Positions 1-6,676 of a stretch of DNA of 6,676 nt are shown one piece after another. The first letter of the stretch is position 1; each line of letters starts with the position of its first letter. Origin of the DNA: Chloroflexota bacterium (GTDB taxonomy: Bacteria > Chloroflexota > Anaerolineae > Anaerolineales > UBA4823); contig DAOVXM010000145.1 in assembly GCA_030636125.1 (NCBI GenBank), forward strand, positions 1-6,676, read 5' to 3'. Below the pieces are notes generated by a model. It searched no databases and was not told the origin of the DNA. It saw only the letters and a list, made by a program, of their open reading frames with translations. Both the position numbers and the translations under genes were made by a program.

Positions 1-2214
1 CAGTTCGATAATTTGTTCCGCTTCCGGTACTGCGGTCTCTCTCCCCGGCTTGGCTATGGGAAAGGGTGCTAACATAATCACTCCTTCTGTCCCGGGTAAC
101 TTTTGCCATAACTCCTCGGTTACAAAGGGCGTAAATGGATGCAATAATCGCAAGCATAAGTCTAAGACGCGTGTTAAAGTCTGGACGGTGTAAAATGCGC
201 GGTCACCACCTTCTGCCATTTGGAGCTTAGCAACTTCCAGGTACCAATCAGCAAACTCACCCCAGAAGAAGTCGTAAATCTGGCGTCCGGCCTCACCATA
301 CTGGTAATTTTGGAAAAGGCGCTCTACATCTTTTATGAGAGATTGCAAACGTGCCCAAATCCATGAATCCGCTAAGGTCCAATCTGGTTCAGCCACAGGT
401 ATTGTTGGCGTCTGGTGGATATTGCCAATCACAAACCGGCCAGCGTTCCAAATTTTGTTGGCAAAATTGCGGTTGGCTTCAACTCTCTTGATACTCAGGT
501 TCATATCGTTCCCTGGAGTAGAGCCAACCAGCAGGGTAAAACGAAGCGCATCGGTTCCCAGTTCGTCCATAACAACCAATGGGTCGATCACATTGCCATA
601 AGTTTTACTCATCTTGCGCCCGCTTTCATCGCGGATCAATCCATGCAAATAAACGATGTTAAATGGGATATCGCCGGTGAATTCCAATCCAAACATAATC
701 ATGCGTGCAACCCAGAAGAAAAGGATATCGTAGCCAGTTTCCATCATAGTGGTGGGGTAGAAATATTTGTAATCGGGGGTTGCCTCAGGCCACCCAAGAG
801 GGGAGAAGGGCCACAAACCAGAAGAGAACCAGGTGTCCAATACATCAGGGTCTTGTTCGAGGTCTTTGCTGGCACAGTAAGCACATTCTGTCGGGTCCTG
901 GCGCGATACTGTCATCTGATTACAGTCTTTGCAATACCAAACGGGGATGCGATGTCCCCACCATAATTGACGACTGATACACCAATCCTGGATGTTTTCA
1001 AGCCAGTTGTAATAAACCTTGGTAAACCGTTCAGGCACGATACGGATTTTTCCCTCCCTAAGGGCTTCGAGCGCAACCTCAGCCAGGGGCTGGATTTTTA
1101 CGAACCATTGAGTAGAGACCATAGGTTCGATAATCTCGCCACCGCGTTGGGAGCGAGGGACTTTCAAGGTGTAAGGCTCCTCCTTGATAACCAGTCCAGC
1201 CTGGCGCATATCTTCCCATAGATTTTCGCGAGCCATAATACGATCCTGCCCAGCATACGGACCACCGTGCGAATTGATCAGGGCGCTATCATCCAGAACA
1301 GAAATAACCTGCAACCCATGGCGTTGACCGATCTCATAGTCATTAGGATCGTGCCCCGGTGTGATCTTAAGCGCACCAGTCCCGAATTCGCGATCAACAT
1401 AATCGTCCGCAATAACAGGTATTTGGCGCTCCAATATGGGTACGAGTACCTGGCGACCGATGTAATGCCGGTAACGATCATCTTCGGGGTGGACTGCTAC
1501 AGCAGTATCACCGAGAATTGTCTCTGGTCGAGTAGTTGCGACTGGAATATATGCCTCATCGTAATCCACCAGTTTATATTTGAAGTAGTACAGGGTTCCT
1601 GGTTCTTCAGCATACTCAACTTCAAGATCTGAGACGGCTGTTTTCAAACCAGGTGACCAGTTGATCAGACGCGGACCGCGATAGATCAAACCTTTCTGAT
1701 ACAGGCGTACAAATGCTTCCCTTACAGCAATAGAAAGACCTTCATCCAAGGTGAACCGTTCTCGATCCCAGTCACAAGAAGCACCCAGGCGTTGAACTTG
1801 CTGTGTGATGATGCCACCAAATTTTTCTTTCCATGCCCAAGTTCGGTTCACGAACTCATCACGCCCGATTTCTTCGCGGGTCAAACCTTCTTTGGCAAGC
1901 GATTTTTCCACTTGGAGTTGGGTAGCAATACCGGCATGATCTGTACCTGGCACCCATAGTGTTGGAACACCTTTCATGCGGTGGTAGCGGATCATCAGGT
2001 CTTCCATGGATACAAACATGGCGTGACCAAGATGTAACTCACCGGTCACATTGGGAGGGGGTATTGAGATCACATACGGTTTTCTGGCAGGGTCAAAATC
2101 CGTTTGATTTGGGTCATTAACCGGCTTGAAATAACCGTTCTGGTCCCACCATTGGTAGACACGTTGCTCGGTGTCTTTGAAGTTATATGTTTTTGGGAGG
2201 GTTTGCTCGGGCAT
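1..2214 (-). CDS. valS: Valyl-tRNA synthetase, canonical bacterial type (3' end cut by window)
   Basis: This cytoplasmic class Ia enzyme charges tRNA-Val with valine and edits Thr-tRNA-Val. The frame is open from the ATG at 2214 to the window edge, giving 738 residues. Seen: the HIGH motif as HLGH (61-64) in PPPNVTGELHLGH; the editing-domain signature TTRPET near 225 and ITPGHDPNDYEIG near 284-296; a four-cysteine zinc ribbon at C428, C431, C444 and C447; KMSKT (534-538), a mild variant of KMSKS; and an anticodon-binding helical domain from about residue 613. These block sequences are those of ValRS rather than IleRS or LeuRS. Family members usually run to about 880-950 residues, so the end of the anticodon domain and the C-terminal coiled-coil arm should lie outside the window. 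The start is fixed by an AGGAG six bases upstream. It is the second gene of an operon, 9 bp after a second, different ValRS gene, and shares that gene's T-box control. Confidence 0.95.
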   Translation of the reverse strand, partial: MPEQTLPKTYNFKDTEQRVYQWWDQNGYFKPVNDPNQTDFDPARKPYVISIPPPNVTGELHLGHAMFVSMEDLMIRYHRMKGVPTLWVPGTDHAGIATQLQVEKSLAKEGLTREEIGRDEFVNRTWAWKEKFGGIITQQVQRLGASCDWDRERFTLDEGLSIAVREAFVRLYQKGLIYRGPRLINWSPGLKTAVSDLEVEYAEEPGTLYYFKYKLVDYDEAYIPVATTRPETILGDTAVAVHPEDDRYRHYIGRQVLVPILERQIPVIADDYVDREFGTGALKITPGHDPNDYEIGQRHGLQVISVLDDSALINSHGGPYAGQDRIMARENLWEDMRQAGLVIKEEPYTLKVPRSQRGGEIIEPMVSTQWFVKIQPLAEVALEALREGKIRIVPERFTKVYYNWLENIQDWCISRQLWWGHRIPVWYCKDCNQMTVSRQDPTECAYCASKDLEQDPDVLDTWFSSGLWPFSPLGWPEATPDYKYFYPTTMMETGYDILFFWVARMIMFGLEFTGDIPFNIVYLHGLIRDESGRKMSKTYGNVIDPLVVMDELGTDALRFTLLVGSTPGNDMNLSIKRVEANRNFANKIWNAGRFVIGNIHQTPTIPVAEPDWTLADSWIWARLQSLIKDVERLFQNYQYGEAGRQIYDFFWGEFADWYLEVAKLQMAEGGDRAFYTVQTLTRVLDLCLRLLHPFTPFVTEELWQKLPGTEGVIMLAPFPIAKPGRETAVPEAEQIIEL

Positions 2215-2220
2215 TTTCTG

Positions 2221-2225
2221 CTCCT
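2221..2225 (-). promoter_or_regulatory. Shine-Dalgarno of canonical valS, overlapping the upstream stop codon
   Basis: On the minus strand the text reads TTTAGGAGCAGAAAATG. AGGAG lies six bases before the ATG, and its first two bases are the last two of the TAG stop of the upstream synthetase gene. This fixes the valS start and suggests translational coupling between the two genes. Confidence 0.8.
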
Positions 2226-4701
2226 AAATAGATGATGTTGGGATATTGATCGCAATGGAAATTGTTCCATTTGTTGGCAATTCCTCAAGTCCGGCTTCAA
2301 ACTGATCGACCAATTCTATGGATCGAGCACGGGTAATACTTTTTATGTCAATCGAGGCCGCACTCAGGCTTTCAGCAATTGTCGATTGGTCAGTCATTAA
2401 TTGTAAACGATCAAGCTCAGTACCAAGGGAAAGGTTATGTTCACTTTTGTAGCGTCTTACCACGGTGGCTATTTCAACCAAGGCTTTTCCGATAACTTCA
2501 GCGTTTGAATCTTCGAAGACATGTGCGGGAGATGGCCAAGTAGAGATATGTATCGATTGGCAACTCTCGGCATCCGCAAATAATCCTTGGTATATCTCCT
2601 CGGTGATAAAGGGGAGGTATGGGGCGAGCAATTTGATTATAGTAAGTAATGTAGTATAGAGCGTATATCGACCACCCTCCCGCATAGGATGTGTTTTATC
2701 GTAGAGACGCTGTTTACACATCTCCAGGTAATTATCTGTGAAATCCCTCCAAAAAAAGGTTTCAATTTCGTTCTTAGCGGAAGCGTAATCATAATCTTCC
2801 AGCAAGCTGGTAACTTGGCGCACTAACATTTCCAGACGAGAGAGGATCCAACGATCTGCCGGAGTTAATTTGGAAATTATTTCTCCATTTGGGGAAGTAG
2901 ACGGGGAGTAACCTGATAAAAATCCCTGGCTAAAGCGAGCGACATTCCATAATTTCGTAACAAGTTTAGTTCCGTTGCGGATCTTACGCTCACTGATGAC
3001 AGCATCCTTGCCTGGGCTAGTGCTGGAAGCCCAGTAGCGTACGGCATCGGAAGAAAATCGCTGGATCATTTCCATGGGTGCCAAGTGGTCACCACCACGA
3101 CTCTTGCTTATTTTTTCCATACCTTCCCCAGCAATACCCCAACCTGAGATGAGGATATTGTTCCATGGGATGGCGTTGAAGTGGAAATGGGATTTAACAA
3201 TCGTGTAAAATGCCCAGGTTCGGATGATTTCATGGGCTTGTGCTCGTAATGTGAAAGGGAATAAACGGTTGTAAAACTCTGCCTGGTTCAACCATCTTCC
3301 AACAATTTGGGGAGTCATAGAGGATGTAGCCCATGTGTCAAGAATATCCTCTTCAGGATCAAATTCTTGTCCCCCACAATTTGGGCATGGTTTGTTGGGT
3401 GAATCTTCAATAGGATCGACTGGAAGTTGTTCATCGTCAGCTGGGATAACTTCACCACACACCCGACAATACCAAATAGGGAAGGGCACACCGAAATAAC
3501 GCTGGCGCGAGATACACCAATCCCAGTTCAGATTTTCGATCCAGGCCTGGTAGCGTGATTTCATATGCTCAGGATGCCAGTGAATTTTATCACCAGCTTT
3601 TAGAAGATCTTCTTTGAGGTCAAGAACACCAATGAACCATTGGCGAGTGATAATATATTCTACTGGAGTGTCGCATCGTTCATGCACACGAACTGATTGG
3701 CTTGTGTGTGTTCGTTGAAGTATGTAGCCGGCTTCCTCCAAAGTACGTTTAATATCTTTTCGAGCTTGGGTTATTGAAAGACCGGAGTATTCACTGGCTA
3801 TCTCTGTCAAGTGGCCATTTTGATCAATGGCTTCAACCAATGGTAATTTGTATGTATACCACCAGGAGACATCAGTCGTATCTCCGAAGGTACAGCACAT
3901 AACGGCACCTGTGCCTTTTTCCGGATTGGCACTTTTGTCAGCTAGGATGGGTACCCGTTGCCCGAATAAGGGCACGTTGGCTGATTGACCGATAAGTTGT
4001 TTGTACCGAGTATCTTGTGGATGGACGAAGATAGCTACACAAGCTGGTAATAATTCAGGTCGCGTTGTAGCTATGGGTAAGGAGTTACCGTTGTCGACAC
4101 GGAAATCTAAAAAAACGAACTCACTCTCACGATCTAGATCTTGTAACTCTGCCTGGGCAATCGCGGTGCTGCATTCAGGACACCAGATTGCGGGAGCCTC
4201 ACGGCGATAAGCACGACCTTTACGATAAAGTTCAAGGAAGGATAATTGGGATATGCGACGCGAATCTGCATCGATTGTACGGTAGGTATAACGCCAGTCA
4301 ATTGATAGTCCAAGTCGCTGCCAGAGCGCCAAATATTCTCCCTCAGCTTCCTGGCTGACTTCCAGACATTTTTTAATAAACTCCTGCCGACCAATTTTGG
4401 TCGCGGAAGTATTTAGACGTTTCTCCACCAGGCGCTCAGTTGGTAAACCATTATCATCGAAACCCATGGGGTAAAACACATAATGTCCCCTCATTCGCCA
4501 GAATCGGGCGAATAGGTCGGGGTGTGAATATGAATACACATGACCAAGGTGCAAGTCACCAGATACGGTTGGTGGGGGTGTATCGATGGAATAAATTGGT
4601 CCTTCTTCAGGTAAAGAAAAATTATAGATACCTTCCGATTGCCAGAAGGATTGAATGCGAGGTTCAACCTCATTAGGAGTGTAGCGCTTGGAAAGTCCCA
4701 T
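2224..4701 (-). CDS. valS: Valyl-tRNA synthetase, archaeal/Rickettsia-like type 2, complete
   Basis: This is a complete class Ia synthetase of 825 residues, within the usual range for type 2 ValRS. Seen: HLGH (51-54) inside DTPPPTVSGDLHLGH, followed by YPMGFDDNGLPTERLVEK (77-94), which are hallmark blocks of archaeal and rickettsial ValRS. The editing domain has TTRPELLPAC near 213-222 and MCCTFGDTTDVSWW near 268-281, again type 2 forms. Zinc-ribbon cysteine pairs sit at C174/C177, C412/C415 and C439/C442. KISKS lies at 530-534, and the anticodon-binding domain starts near 611. I chose the ATG at 4701 because GAGGAG precedes it by six bases and family-like sequence begins there. The in-frame ATG at 4767 would add 22 residues lying in the untranslated leader. 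It is the first gene of the T-box operon, and its stop overlaps the ribosome site of the next ValRS gene. It may be the housekeeping enzyme or an inhibitor-tolerant partner; the sequence cannot say. Confidence 0.95.
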   Translation of the reverse strand: MGLSKRYTPNEVEPRIQSFWQSEGIYNFSLPEEGPIYSIDTPPPTVSGDLHLGHVYSYSHPDLFARFWRMRGHYVFYPMGFDDNGLPTERLVEKRLNTSATKIGRQEFIKKCLEVSQEAEGEYLALWQRLGLSIDWRYTYRTIDADSRRISQLSFLELYRKGRAYRREAPAIWCPECSTAIAQAELQDLDRESEFVFLDFRVDNGNSLPIATTRPELLPACVAIFVHPQDTRYKQLIGQSANVPLFGQRVPILADKSANPEKGTGAVMCCTFGDTTDVSWWYTYKLPLVEAIDQNGHLTEIASEYSGLSITQARKDIKRTLEEAGYILQRTHTSQSVRVHERCDTPVEYIITRQWFIGVLDLKEDLLKAGDKIHWHPEHMKSRYQAWIENLNWDWCISRQRYFGVPFPIWYCRVCGEVIPADDEQLPVDPIEDSPNKPCPNCGGQEFDPEEDILDTWATSSMTPQIVGRWLNQAEFYNRLFPFTLRAQAHEIIRTWAFYTIVKSHFHFNAIPWNNILISGWGIAGEGMEKISKSRGGDHLAPMEMIQRFSSDAVRYWASSTSPGKDAVISERKIRNGTKLVTKLWNVARFSQGFLSGYSPSTSPNGEIISKLTPADRWILSRLEMLVRQVTSLLEDYDYASAKNEIETFFWRDFTDNYLEMCKQRLYDKTHPMREGGRYTLYTTLLTIIKLLAPYLPFITEEIYQGLFADAESCQSIHISTWPSPAHVFEDSNAEVIGKALVEIATVVRRYKSEHNLSLGTELDRLQLMTDQSTIAESLSAASIDIKSITRARSIELVDQFEAGLEELPTNGTISIAINIPTSSI

Positions 4702-4707
4702 GATAAT

Positions 4708-4713
4708 CTCCTC
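4708..4713 (-). promoter_or_regulatory. Shine-Dalgarno deciding the start of the type 2 ValRS gene
   Basis: GAGGAG on the minus strand lies six bases before the ATG at 4701. No comparable purine-rich site precedes the longer in-frame start at 4767, so the shorter protein is preferred. Confidence 0.8.
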
Positions 4714-4754
4714 ATTGGGATATGCTTTCGTGGCATCAAATGTAACCACAATTT

Positions 4755-4805
4755 GGCACCAATCCAAAAAAGTTGGTCAGTTTTCCTTACCGATCAGGTG
4801 GTGCC
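4755..4805 (-). promoter_or_regulatory. Nested stem-loop between the T-box terminator and the start codon
   Basis: In the minus-strand transcript GGCACCA (4805-4799) can pair perfectly with TGGTGCC (4761-4755). Inside it, GATCGGT (4795-4789) can pair with ACTGACC (4781-4775) with one mismatch and one G-U pair. That inner hairpin is followed by AAC and six U (4771-4766). It could be a weak second attenuator, an mRNA-stabilising or processing structure, or incidental. Its function is not established by the sequence. Confidence 0.4.
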
Positions 4806-4824
4806 TAAACCTTGCCTGGCAAAC

Positions 4825-4858
4825 AAAAAAACCTCTCGTCCAATTTGAGGACGAAAGG
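4825..4858 (-). terminator. Intrinsic terminator of the valine T-box leader
   Basis: In the minus-strand transcript CCTTTCGTCC (4858-4849) pairs over ten bases, with one G-U, with GGACGAGAGG (4841-4832) around a seven-base loop. Seven U follow (4831-4825). The loop-side bases CCTCAA can instead pair with TTGAGG at the start of the T-box sequence to form the antiterminator, so the two folds exclude each other. Confidence 0.93.
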
Positions 4859-4867
4859 GCAAGCCAT

Positions 4868-4881
4868 CCGCGGTACCACCT
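4868..4881 (-). promoter_or_regulatory. T-box sequence / antiterminator bulge
   Basis: The minus strand reads AGGTGGTACCGCGG, a near-exact match to the conserved T-box element. TGGT is the segment expected to pair with the free ACCA end of uncharged tRNA. Flanking TTGAGG pairs with CCTCAA inside the terminator to build the antiterminator. Confidence 0.93.
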
Positions 4882-5080
4882 CAATTCGCCAGATGTCATT
4901 TCTGGCACACTTAACCCTTGACAATCCGATAATAGCTGGTTTATCAAGGCTACGCTATAACGGGCTTACCCGTGCCGGTCTACTTAGGTTAATTTTTCTT
5001 ACCTGTTCTTCGGCATTAAATCCAGGCGACCTTCGGCGATTGGCAACTATGGGGGCTTTCAGCCAATGGCCACTCCTTCT

Positions 5081-5111
5081 CTGAGGAAAACACATCGTGT
5101 CTTCCACTCAG
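5081..5111 (-). promoter_or_regulatory. Extra hairpin inserted in T-box stem I
   Basis: In the leader RNA GGAAGACAC (5105-5097) pairs over nine bases with GTGTTTTCC (5093-5085) around a GAT loop. CTGA/TCAG extends the stem below a two-base bulge. It lies on the 5' strand of stem I between the upper stem (5117) and the putative AG bulge (5082-5078), with no matching insertion on the 3' strand, so it would form a side arm. Confidence 0.6.
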
Positions 5112-5161
5112 CGCTTCAATCGCTTACTGCTCCCGGATGAGGGTTCTATATTGTTTCAGAG

Positions 5162-5190
5162 ATTATAAGCGTTTATTGTATGAAGGTCAA
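5162..5190 (-). promoter_or_regulatory. Sigma-70-type promoter of the T-box/ValRS operon
   Basis: On the minus strand TTGACC (5190-5185) and a perfect TATAAT (5167-5162) are separated by exactly 17 bases. The expected transcript start is near 5155, about 17 bases before stem I of the T-box begins. Confidence 0.85.
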
Positions 5191-5266
5191 CGCATAGAGT
5201 AATGAAGTAGTTTCCTGGTTTGAGAAGTAGATGAGAAAAATATATCGATAAACGGTCTCGGATTGC

Positions 5267-5296
5267 TTGACTTTTGCCCCTAGTTTATGCTATCCT
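5267..5296 (+). promoter_or_regulatory. Sigma-70-type promoter of the MBL-fold hydrolase gene
   Basis: TTGACT (5267-5272) and TATCCT (5291-5296) are separated by 18 bases, about 35 bases before the start codon at 5331. It is divergent from the T-box operon promoter; the two -35 boxes are about 76 bp apart. Confidence 0.65.
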
Positions 5297-5330
5297 GAGC
5301 TAATACTTAAACTCTTGGGAAGGAAAAATA

Positions 5331-6197
5331 ATGCAACGCGAGAGAGTAGCTGATAACGTATATTATTTTCAAAGCGAGGTCTATGCCCAGGTTACTGCAG
5401 GTGCTGTTGTGGGACCAAACTGGGCTGTAGTTATTGATACATTAGCATTGCCAGAGGAAGCTTTATCCATACGGGATTTTATTGAACAAGTACTCAATGT
5501 TCCAGTCCGTTATGTAATTAACACGCACTATCACGCTGATCATGCCTGGGGGAATTATTATTTCCCCGGGTCAGTGGTGATCGCCCATACATACTGCCGT
5601 CAATGGTTGGAAGAACGGGGTGTTCCATCTTTAGAGACGGTAAGCCAACAGAACCCAGCATTTCGAAATGTAAAGATCGTCTTGCCCCAAGTTACTTTTA
5701 ATCAAGGACAAATCAGCCTAAAAGTCGGGAAGAAAACGTTGACGCTTTTACCTTTACCTGGCCACTCAGCCGATAATATCGCCGTTCTGGTCGAAGAGGA
5801 CCGGGTTCTATTCGCGGGAGATACCTGCATGCCGTTGCCATATATTGTTGATGGAAATATTGATGATATGGAGTCCTCATTGAAATTTTTGGAAACAATT
5901 GGATTGGAGAGTCTGGTTCAAGGTCATGGTGATATTGTCTTGCGCGGTGAGGTTGGAGGATATGTTAAAGAAAATCTAGCTTATTTATCAGCTATTCGGA
6001 AAGCGGTTCGTAAGGCTTCCAGACGAAAATACCCACAGGATTTGTTACAAAAAATCAGCGTGGAGGACAGCGGTAAGAGTCGGGTATTGTTAGAAGGATT
6101 GGTAGAAGAGCTGCATCAACGCAACTTGCGCGCCTTGTATTATCAGACATATCAAGAGTATCCTTTGGAATCCGAGGAGGATAATGATTACTATTAA
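5331..6197 (+). CDS. MBL-fold metallo-hydrolase
   Basis: This is a complete 288-residue protein with no signal peptide or membrane segment visible, so it is probably cytoplasmic. The metallo-beta-lactamase-fold signature is complete. THYHADH supplies H66, H68, D70 and H71, PGHS supplies H145, FAGDT supplies D164 and GHGD supplies H199, which is enough for a binuclear metal site. The order and spacing resemble the broad family of single-domain MBL hydrolases often labelled SoxH/cyclase-like or glyoxalase II-like; the substrate cannot be told from sequence. The last third is helical and basic (AVRKASRRK), ending in an acidic tail ESEEDNDYY. The start is supported by GGGAAGGA (5317-5324) and by an upstream promoter. 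It is divergent from the ValRS operon and convergent with the JAMM gene, so probably monocistronic. No functional tie to valine charging is visible. Confidence 0.92.
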   Translation: MQRERVADNVYYFQSEVYAQVTAGAVVGPNWAVVIDTLALPEEALSIRDFIEQVLNVPVRYVINTHYHADHAWGNYYFPGSVVIAHTYCRQWLEERGVPSLETVSQQNPAFRNVKIVLPQVTFNQGQISLKVGKKTLTLLPLPGHSADNIAVLVEEDRVLFAGDTCMPLPYIVDGNIDDMESSLKFLETIGLESLVQGHGDIVLRGEVGGYVKENLAYLSAIRKAVRKASRRKYPQDLLQKISVEDSGKSRVLLEGLVEELHQRNLRALYYQTYQEYPLESEEDNDYY

Positions 6198-6484: not shown

Positions 6485-6676
6485 TTAATTTATGCGTAAT
6501 AATACTTCAGAGACTTTACCGTTGGAAATACGAAATCCTCTACAAGTCCAATTGTCTGCTGTAAGTGACCAAATCAGGTGAATGGCATCTGGGTAGTAGG
6601 CTTCGGCGATATCGGTTAGTGAGGGTATTGCGGGTCCGTTTGGGTGGGAGTGGTAGATACCCAGCATCTCCCAACC
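6485..6676 (-). CDS. JAMM/MPN-domain (Mov34/M67-type) metalloprotease, C-terminal part
   Basis: Only the last 63 residues are in the window; the reading frame continues through the right edge (GWEMLGIYHSHP...), so the methionine at 6667 is internal. HSHPNGPAIPSLTD fits the zinc-binding JAMM core HxH-x7-S-x2-D exactly, and the preceding hydrophobic WEMLGIY strand fits the fold. The catalytic glutamate of the motif should lie upstream, outside the window. Bacterial relatives of about 130-160 residues include Mec-type peptidases that act on small ubiquitin-like sulfur carriers (ThiS/MoaD/CysO) and other isopeptidase-like proteins; which one this is needs the neighbouring genes to the right. The protein ends with an ordinary TAA at 6487-6485, is convergent with the MBL gene and is separated from it by the hairpin array. 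Confidence 0.88.
   Translation of the reverse strand, partial: GWEMLGIYHSHPNGPAIPSLTDIAEAYYPDAIHLIWSLTADNWTCRGFRISNGKVSEVLLRIN

Follow-up and report, generated by a model that had tools for sequence, protein, structure and literature searches.

A tandem of two deeply diverged valyl-tRNA synthetase genes behind a probable T-box leader in Chloroflexota

Valyl-tRNA synthetase (ValRS) is usually encoded by one essential gene, and a tandem of two different ValRS genes raises the question of why a bacterium would keep a second enzyme for the same amino acid. Such a tandem was predicted within a 6,676-nucleotide stretch of DNA from a Chloroflexota bacterium (contig DAOVXM010000145.1; hereafter the window), and both reading frames are found where they had been placed, on the minus strand. 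The upstream gene (2224..4701) encodes an archaeal-type ValRS of 825 aa, designated T2, that falls in the T2 clade described below. The downstream gene (1..2214) encodes the first 738 aa of a canonical bacterial ValRS, designated CAN, truncated by the window edge. T2 scores 1043 bits against NF009687 (cut-off 738) and CAN scores 1079.8 bits, over its 738 aa, against NF004349 (cut-off 704). Both families carry the name valine--tRNA ligase and, with scores this high, a chance match is not at issue. Among solved structures, 1gax, the Thermus ValRS, is the closest in sequence to both (371 bits for T2, 771 bits for CAN). Membership of T2 in alt_ValS (NF000540), a family that the tree places on the same side as T2, was considered and ruled out, as the score of 781.8 is below that family's cut-off of 900. 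Members of alt_ValS do occur in Chloroflexota, with L101 and L104 scoring 1051.7 and 1347.1 against the same cut-off, and L102 groups with L101 in the 136-row tree.

The motifs quoted for the two genes in the original prediction are present in their translations and, with the core catalytic and editing motifs of both enzymes kept, the accompanying proposal that both appear catalytically and editing competent is supported at the level of motifs. Across 61 Chloroflexota-type T2 sequences, the first His of the HIGH motif, both Lys residues of KxSKS and both Asp residues of the editing block are invariant. The last His of HIGH is changed in three (to Asn in L036 and L044, and to Ser in L048), all of which retain the other motifs checked, and the window T2 has the canonical HLGH, with HIGH unaltered. 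Its editing block, GTGAVMCCTFGDTTD, is like those of the archaeal rows and unlike the GTGALKITPGHDPND of CAN; these blocks presumably form the editing site. The stretch of CAN in which a C-terminal arm (PF10458) would be expected falls beyond the window edge; the arm is present in five proteins of 901 aa that are 98-99% identical to CAN over 96% of the query. A broken CAN, a possibility that the original prediction had allowed for, finds no support, as its close kin are full length. T2 and CAN are both apparently intact enzymes.

The prediction that the two genes are a non-orthologous pair, and not a recent duplication, is borne out by their phylogeny. In a tree of 136 rows, T2 (91) and CAN (45) sequences lie on opposite sides of one branch with a support of 100. 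That tree left out L109, L115-L120 and proteins shorter than 690 aa, and includes the CAN of L012, which has a long branch and is partly foreign owing to a run of Ns. In a tree of 68 rows built under LG+C20 from 62 hand-picked ValRS and rooted with 6 IleRS as outgroup, ValRS forms one clade (100) that splits into a CAN clade (100) and a T2 clade (100). Both trees were quick searches, with support given by SH-aLRT only and with Rickettsiales left out. T2 and CAN are about 30% identical which, with their separate clades, rules out a recent duplication. The window T2 falls with the archaeal ValRS rows, apart from the canonical bacterial ValRS, with a support of 100, and this position and its NF009687 score identify it as an archaeal-type enzyme, which bears out the archaeal part of the predicted archaeal/rickettsial type. 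Within the rooted tree, the 25 Chloroflexota-type T2 rows form a group (99) that is distinct from all other T2, the archaeal ones included. The T2 sequences of the window, L002 and L012 cluster together (94), as do the CAN sequences of the window and L002 (100). L002 is an Anaerolineales chromosome, and the host of the window is probably a member of that order. In G116 and G176, members of the class of Ktedonosporobacter, the T2 is of the Anaerolineae type while the CAN groups with its own class, which suggests that these T2 genes were acquired by transfer. Chloroflexota-type T2 genes are also found on two contigs, L036 and L038, titled Proteobacteria and Latescibacterota, respectively, reflecting either transfer or binning errors.

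The organization of the locus is that of a probable operon. T2 starts with an ATG at 4701, preceded by AGGAG, and is separated from CAN by 9 nt, with the AGGAG of CAN overlapping the T2 stop codon. Within the junction (2050-2450) there is no terminator-like site, and there is one weak promoter-like site (9/12), about the number expected from shuffled sequences. Upstream of T2, a sigma-70-like promoter sequence, TTGACC-17-TATAAT, with 11 of 12 consensus matches, is present at 5162..5190 on the minus strand; the region from 4700 to 5335 has two promoter-like sites, as compared with a mean of 1.1 in shuffles. Given the 9-nt gap, the T-box and promoter-like site upstream and the absence of a terminator-like site at the junction, T2 and CAN are likely to be on one transcript. 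The original claim that they are expressed from a single transcript is to this extent well founded, the expression itself being predicted. A metallo-beta-lactamase-fold protein is encoded divergently from the ValRS operon (5331-6197, plus strand), and a gene for such a protein also lies upstream of T2 in five relatives. The C-terminal part of a JAB-domain protein is encoded at 6485-6676 on the minus strand, truncated by the window end, and a JAB-like protein, recognized by eye, is encoded near T2 in five relatives.

The T-box leader and the promoter-like site were absent from the earlier description of the locus. The leader, from stem I to the antiterminator, extends over 4844..5120 on the minus strand and matches RF00230 with 54.4 bits (E 4.2e-11), a score below the Rfam gathering score of 93. 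Within it, on the same strand, are the T-box sequence GGTGGTACC (4872..4880) and a specifier codon, GUC (Val; 5028..5030), in the context GAA-G-GUC-GCC (5034-5025). An intrinsic terminator, with a 10-pair stem and a T run, is positioned as an alternative to the antiterminator (4825..4858, minus strand). It is the one terminator-like site found, as compared with a mean of 0.6 in shuffles, and its fold, at -17.1 kcal/mol (z -5.3), was equalled by none of 200 shuffles. For the antiterminator, 57 of 200 shuffles fold at least as well (z -0.59). The window leader has a T-box sequence, a specifier loop with a cognate codon and a terminator, and sits upstream of a cognate synthetase. All of 20 further Chloroflexota leaders scanned match RF00230 (E <= 2.1e-8), with one reaching the gathering score, a score reached by all 7 clostridial T2 leaders found (8 loci given). 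In other leaders, the GUN triplet of the specifier is constant and the preceding base varies. The RNA switch ahead of the pair probably senses uncharged tRNA-Val. T-boxes are reported for Chloroflexi in PMC3766115.

A survey of related genomes for the pair had been suggested, and it revealed that the tandem recurs. A scan of public genomes was evaluated for the best 80 of 564 stretches, 53 of them Chloroflexota-type loci, and the fractions that follow apply to the loci most similar to the query. Of the Chloroflexota-type T2 loci, 49 have 400 nt or more of upstream sequence, and a T-box core is present there in 42. No T-box core was found in the upstream stretch read for the remaining seven (L005, L008, L013, L036, L038, L044 and L050), although L008 does have a core, at more than 900 nt upstream. 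Downstream sequence of 3.5 kb or more is available for 44 T2 loci, and in 22 of these a CAN follows on the same strand, within 1-100 nt of T2 in 12 cases and at about 1-3.3 kb in 10. With at least 7 kb of downstream sequence, 18 of 33 T2 loci have a CAN and 15 do not. Clustering of neighbours (top 14 clusters) identified CAN as the commonest neighbour of T2, with 22 loci, the next cluster having 8. A candidate 23rd CAN neighbour, at L041, was rejected as a distant synthetase-like frame, 21-25% identical, on the opposite strand. CAN sequences that seemed split or intein-bearing, in G005 (L012), G007 (L016) and L037, have breaks that coincide with runs of Ns, and these breaks are assembly gaps or masked stretches. 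When T2 and CAN lie apart, each often has its own T-box, and T-boxes also precede CAN in some Chloroflexota where CAN alone was found (L094, L096, L098).

Presence of T2 was scored, genome by genome, as a match over the NF009687 cut-off. T2 is present in 24 of 300 Chloroflexota, in 4 of 120 members of the class of G001, the nearest named relative, in 18 of 47 members of the class of G016, which is the class of Ktedonosporobacter, and in 10 of 148 members of the clostridial class of G319, a Clostridiaceae MAG, with the sample centres G001, G016 and G319 holding T2 by construction. In whole-genome searches, both ValRS types were found in 17 of the 18 genomes reached via T2 loci. A second ValRS match is present in 18 of 23 listed T2-bearing Chloroflexota, including G257, an alt_ValS carrier, and 7 of the 10 clostridial T2 genomes also have CAN. 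No CAN over the cut-off accompanies T2 in G003, G113, G198, G350, G472, G543 and G573, and in G039 CAN is present as a C-terminal fragment only. The genomes may be incomplete, and little weight attaches to any single one of these absences. In G202, the related alt_ValS type occurs by itself, and in its tree neighbour, G106, a CAN over the cut-off is also lacking. T2 is, then, a patchy accessory, mostly alongside CAN, and the sole ValRS found in some genomes.

Genomes in which T2 and CAN each have their own T-box permit a comparison of the codons that the leaders display. Specifiers were read as GAA-(N)-GUN-N-(C/U) and, where there were several candidates, the choice was made visually from a GAA-(N)-GUN context. 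Both leaders were readable in 26 of the 31 genomes with both genes that were examined. In the five in which they were not, no T-box core was found for CAN (G004, G013, G483), for T2 (G030) or for either (G315). In 18 of the 26 genomes, the T2 and CAN leaders read different valine codons. T2 has GUG and CAN has GUC in 12 genomes of the Ktedonosporobacter class and in the Clostridia G319 and G322; T2 has GUA and CAN has GUC in the Clostridia G464 and G498; and the reverse arrangement, GUC for T2 and GUG for CAN, is found in G317 and in G008, for which the T2 codon comes from a first pass that left 26 of 65 leaders unread and misread some others. The CAN codon of G347 was read from a variant motif with CAA. 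The codons are the same in the remaining 8, with GUC in G014, G018, G116, G176, G380 and G402, and GUA in G559 and G582. The 18 differing genomes, counted one by one, represent about four lineages, not 18 events. Leaders with different codons were noted in G016, G017, G316 and others (loci L047, L081, L060, L087, L223 and L232). The G016 genome has 54 tRNA matches, of which 44 were read, the other 10 being at least 80 nt long. These include tRNA-Val with GAC, UAC and CAC anticodons, so that both G016 leaders have a matching tRNA. In G001, 30 of 35 tRNA matches, a list that is seemingly incomplete, were read and include tRNA-Val with UAC and GAC. Extra or odd tRNA-Val genes were considered and rejected, as all five tRNA-Val genes seen in G001 and G016 look ordinary.

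We consider it fairly probable that the window contains a T-box-controlled two-gene valS operon in which T2 is an inducible second ValRS that adds valylation when tRNA-Val is uncharged. The leader would bind uncharged tRNA-Val, with a GAC anticodon, via its GUC specifier, and the bound tRNA would stabilise the antiterminator so that transcription runs into T2 and then into CAN. CAN would be the resident housekeeping ValRS, and T2 a second, presumably competent, archaeal-type ValRS that may increase valylation capacity when charged tRNA-Val drops. T2 would be an accessory of long standing, transferred between members of the phylum or lost from some of them, and in its inducible role it would resemble the second synthetases ThrZ and TyrZ of Bacillus. 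Several observations count against an inducible second ValRS, namely the sub-gathering score of the leader, an antiterminator fold like those of shuffles, the 7 of 49 loci with no core and the rarity of the pair (T2 in 4 of 120 members of the G001 class, G001 included). Induction alone also leaves the keeping of a different type unexplained, because more of the resident enzyme would serve equally.

Conservation of the two proteins was compared over 20 loci, with L012, L035 and L112 left out. In close pairs, mean identity is 64.9% for T2 and 73.9% for CAN, and CAN has the greater identity in 81 of these 85 pairs, which are non-independent. No such difference is seen when all 190 pairs are taken together (62.6% for T2 and 61.9% for CAN, with CAN ahead in 86), probably because the CAN sequences of the tandem loci are of two distant sorts. 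The lower conservation of T2 in close pairs, its patchiness and the occasional loss of the last His of HIGH may be signs of an accessory role. These same features also count in favour of T2 being an isozyme tolerant of an inhibitor or analogue directed at canonical ValRS, as IleRS2 is for mupirocin, and the active-site blocks of T2 and CAN do differ. Hyper-resistance to mupirocin is reported for IleRS2 whose HXGH motif is altered (PMC10485003). We regard this explanation as rather unlikely. T2 and CAN are equally conserved over all pairs, the window T2 has an unaltered HLGH, nothing among the recurrent neighbours (top 14 clusters) suggests an inhibitor, and resistance would not need co-transcription with CAN.

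The original prediction had also raised the possibility of a replacement caught in progress. As a one-off event this is unlikely, because this tandem recurs in many relatives, yet the genomes in which only T2 was found suggest that displacement is possible. A slow non-orthologous displacement, in which redundant enzymes without a special role persist until one is lost, would accommodate the existence of T2-only, CAN-only and dual genomes and the transfer suggested by G116 and G176, but both the pairing and the T-box are recurrent features of distantly related Chloroflexota and of Clostridia, and the core motifs remain intact; we consider it unlikely. A division of tRNA-Val isoacceptors, with T2 and CAN serving, or wired to, different ones, had likewise been raised, and is hinted at only in genomes other than that of the window, by the leaders with different codons (T2 GUG or GUA with CAN GUC in 16, the reverse in 2) and by the three tRNA-Val anticodons of G016. 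It is very unlikely, given the one GUC leader that precedes both window genes, the identical codons in 8 of 26 genomes, the few lineages to which the differing cases are confined, the ordinary-looking tRNA-Val genes seen in two dual genomes and the genomes in which T2 was the only type found. The control of valine charging could itself be split by isoacceptor, with one ValRS gene induced by uncharged tRNA-Val(CAC) or tRNA-Val(UAC) and the other by tRNA-Val(GAC), in several lineages and in both directions, and with the window tandem as the single-leader form; this we advance tentatively, as an improbable reading.

Several known systems resemble the pair in part. ThrZ and TyrZ of Bacillus subtilis are T-box-controlled second synthetases and, like T2, each is a second gene for the same amino acid, with a T-box leader that has a cognate specifier. 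Unlike them, T2 belongs to a different deep clade from its partner, and the leader and operon are common to both copies. With archaeal ValRS of the PRK13208 type (NF009687), the window T2 shares family membership, by score and by tree position, but in contrast to these enzymes it is an accessory and lies behind a T-box; in three archaeal genomes (G329, G330 and G331), the NF009687-type enzyme is the only match over the valS cut-off. IleRS1 and IleRS2, described in PMC10485003, likewise bring enzymes from two deep clades of a class Ia synthetase together in a single cell, and in the accessory clade the HIGH motif is sometimes changed. In IleRS2, however, it is the first and third residues of HIGH that are swapped, whereas in T2 the fourth is changed, in 3 of 61 sequences, and the window T2 has HLGH. 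For T2, inhibitor tolerance would be a conjecture. Judged by titles and the starts of abstracts, the pair is undescribed in the open-access papers among the matches listed. With a recurring pair of deep paralogues behind tRNA-sensing leaders, the question of why a cell has two synthetases for one amino acid becomes testable, and a second type of ValRS bears on how inhibitors of ValRS could fail.
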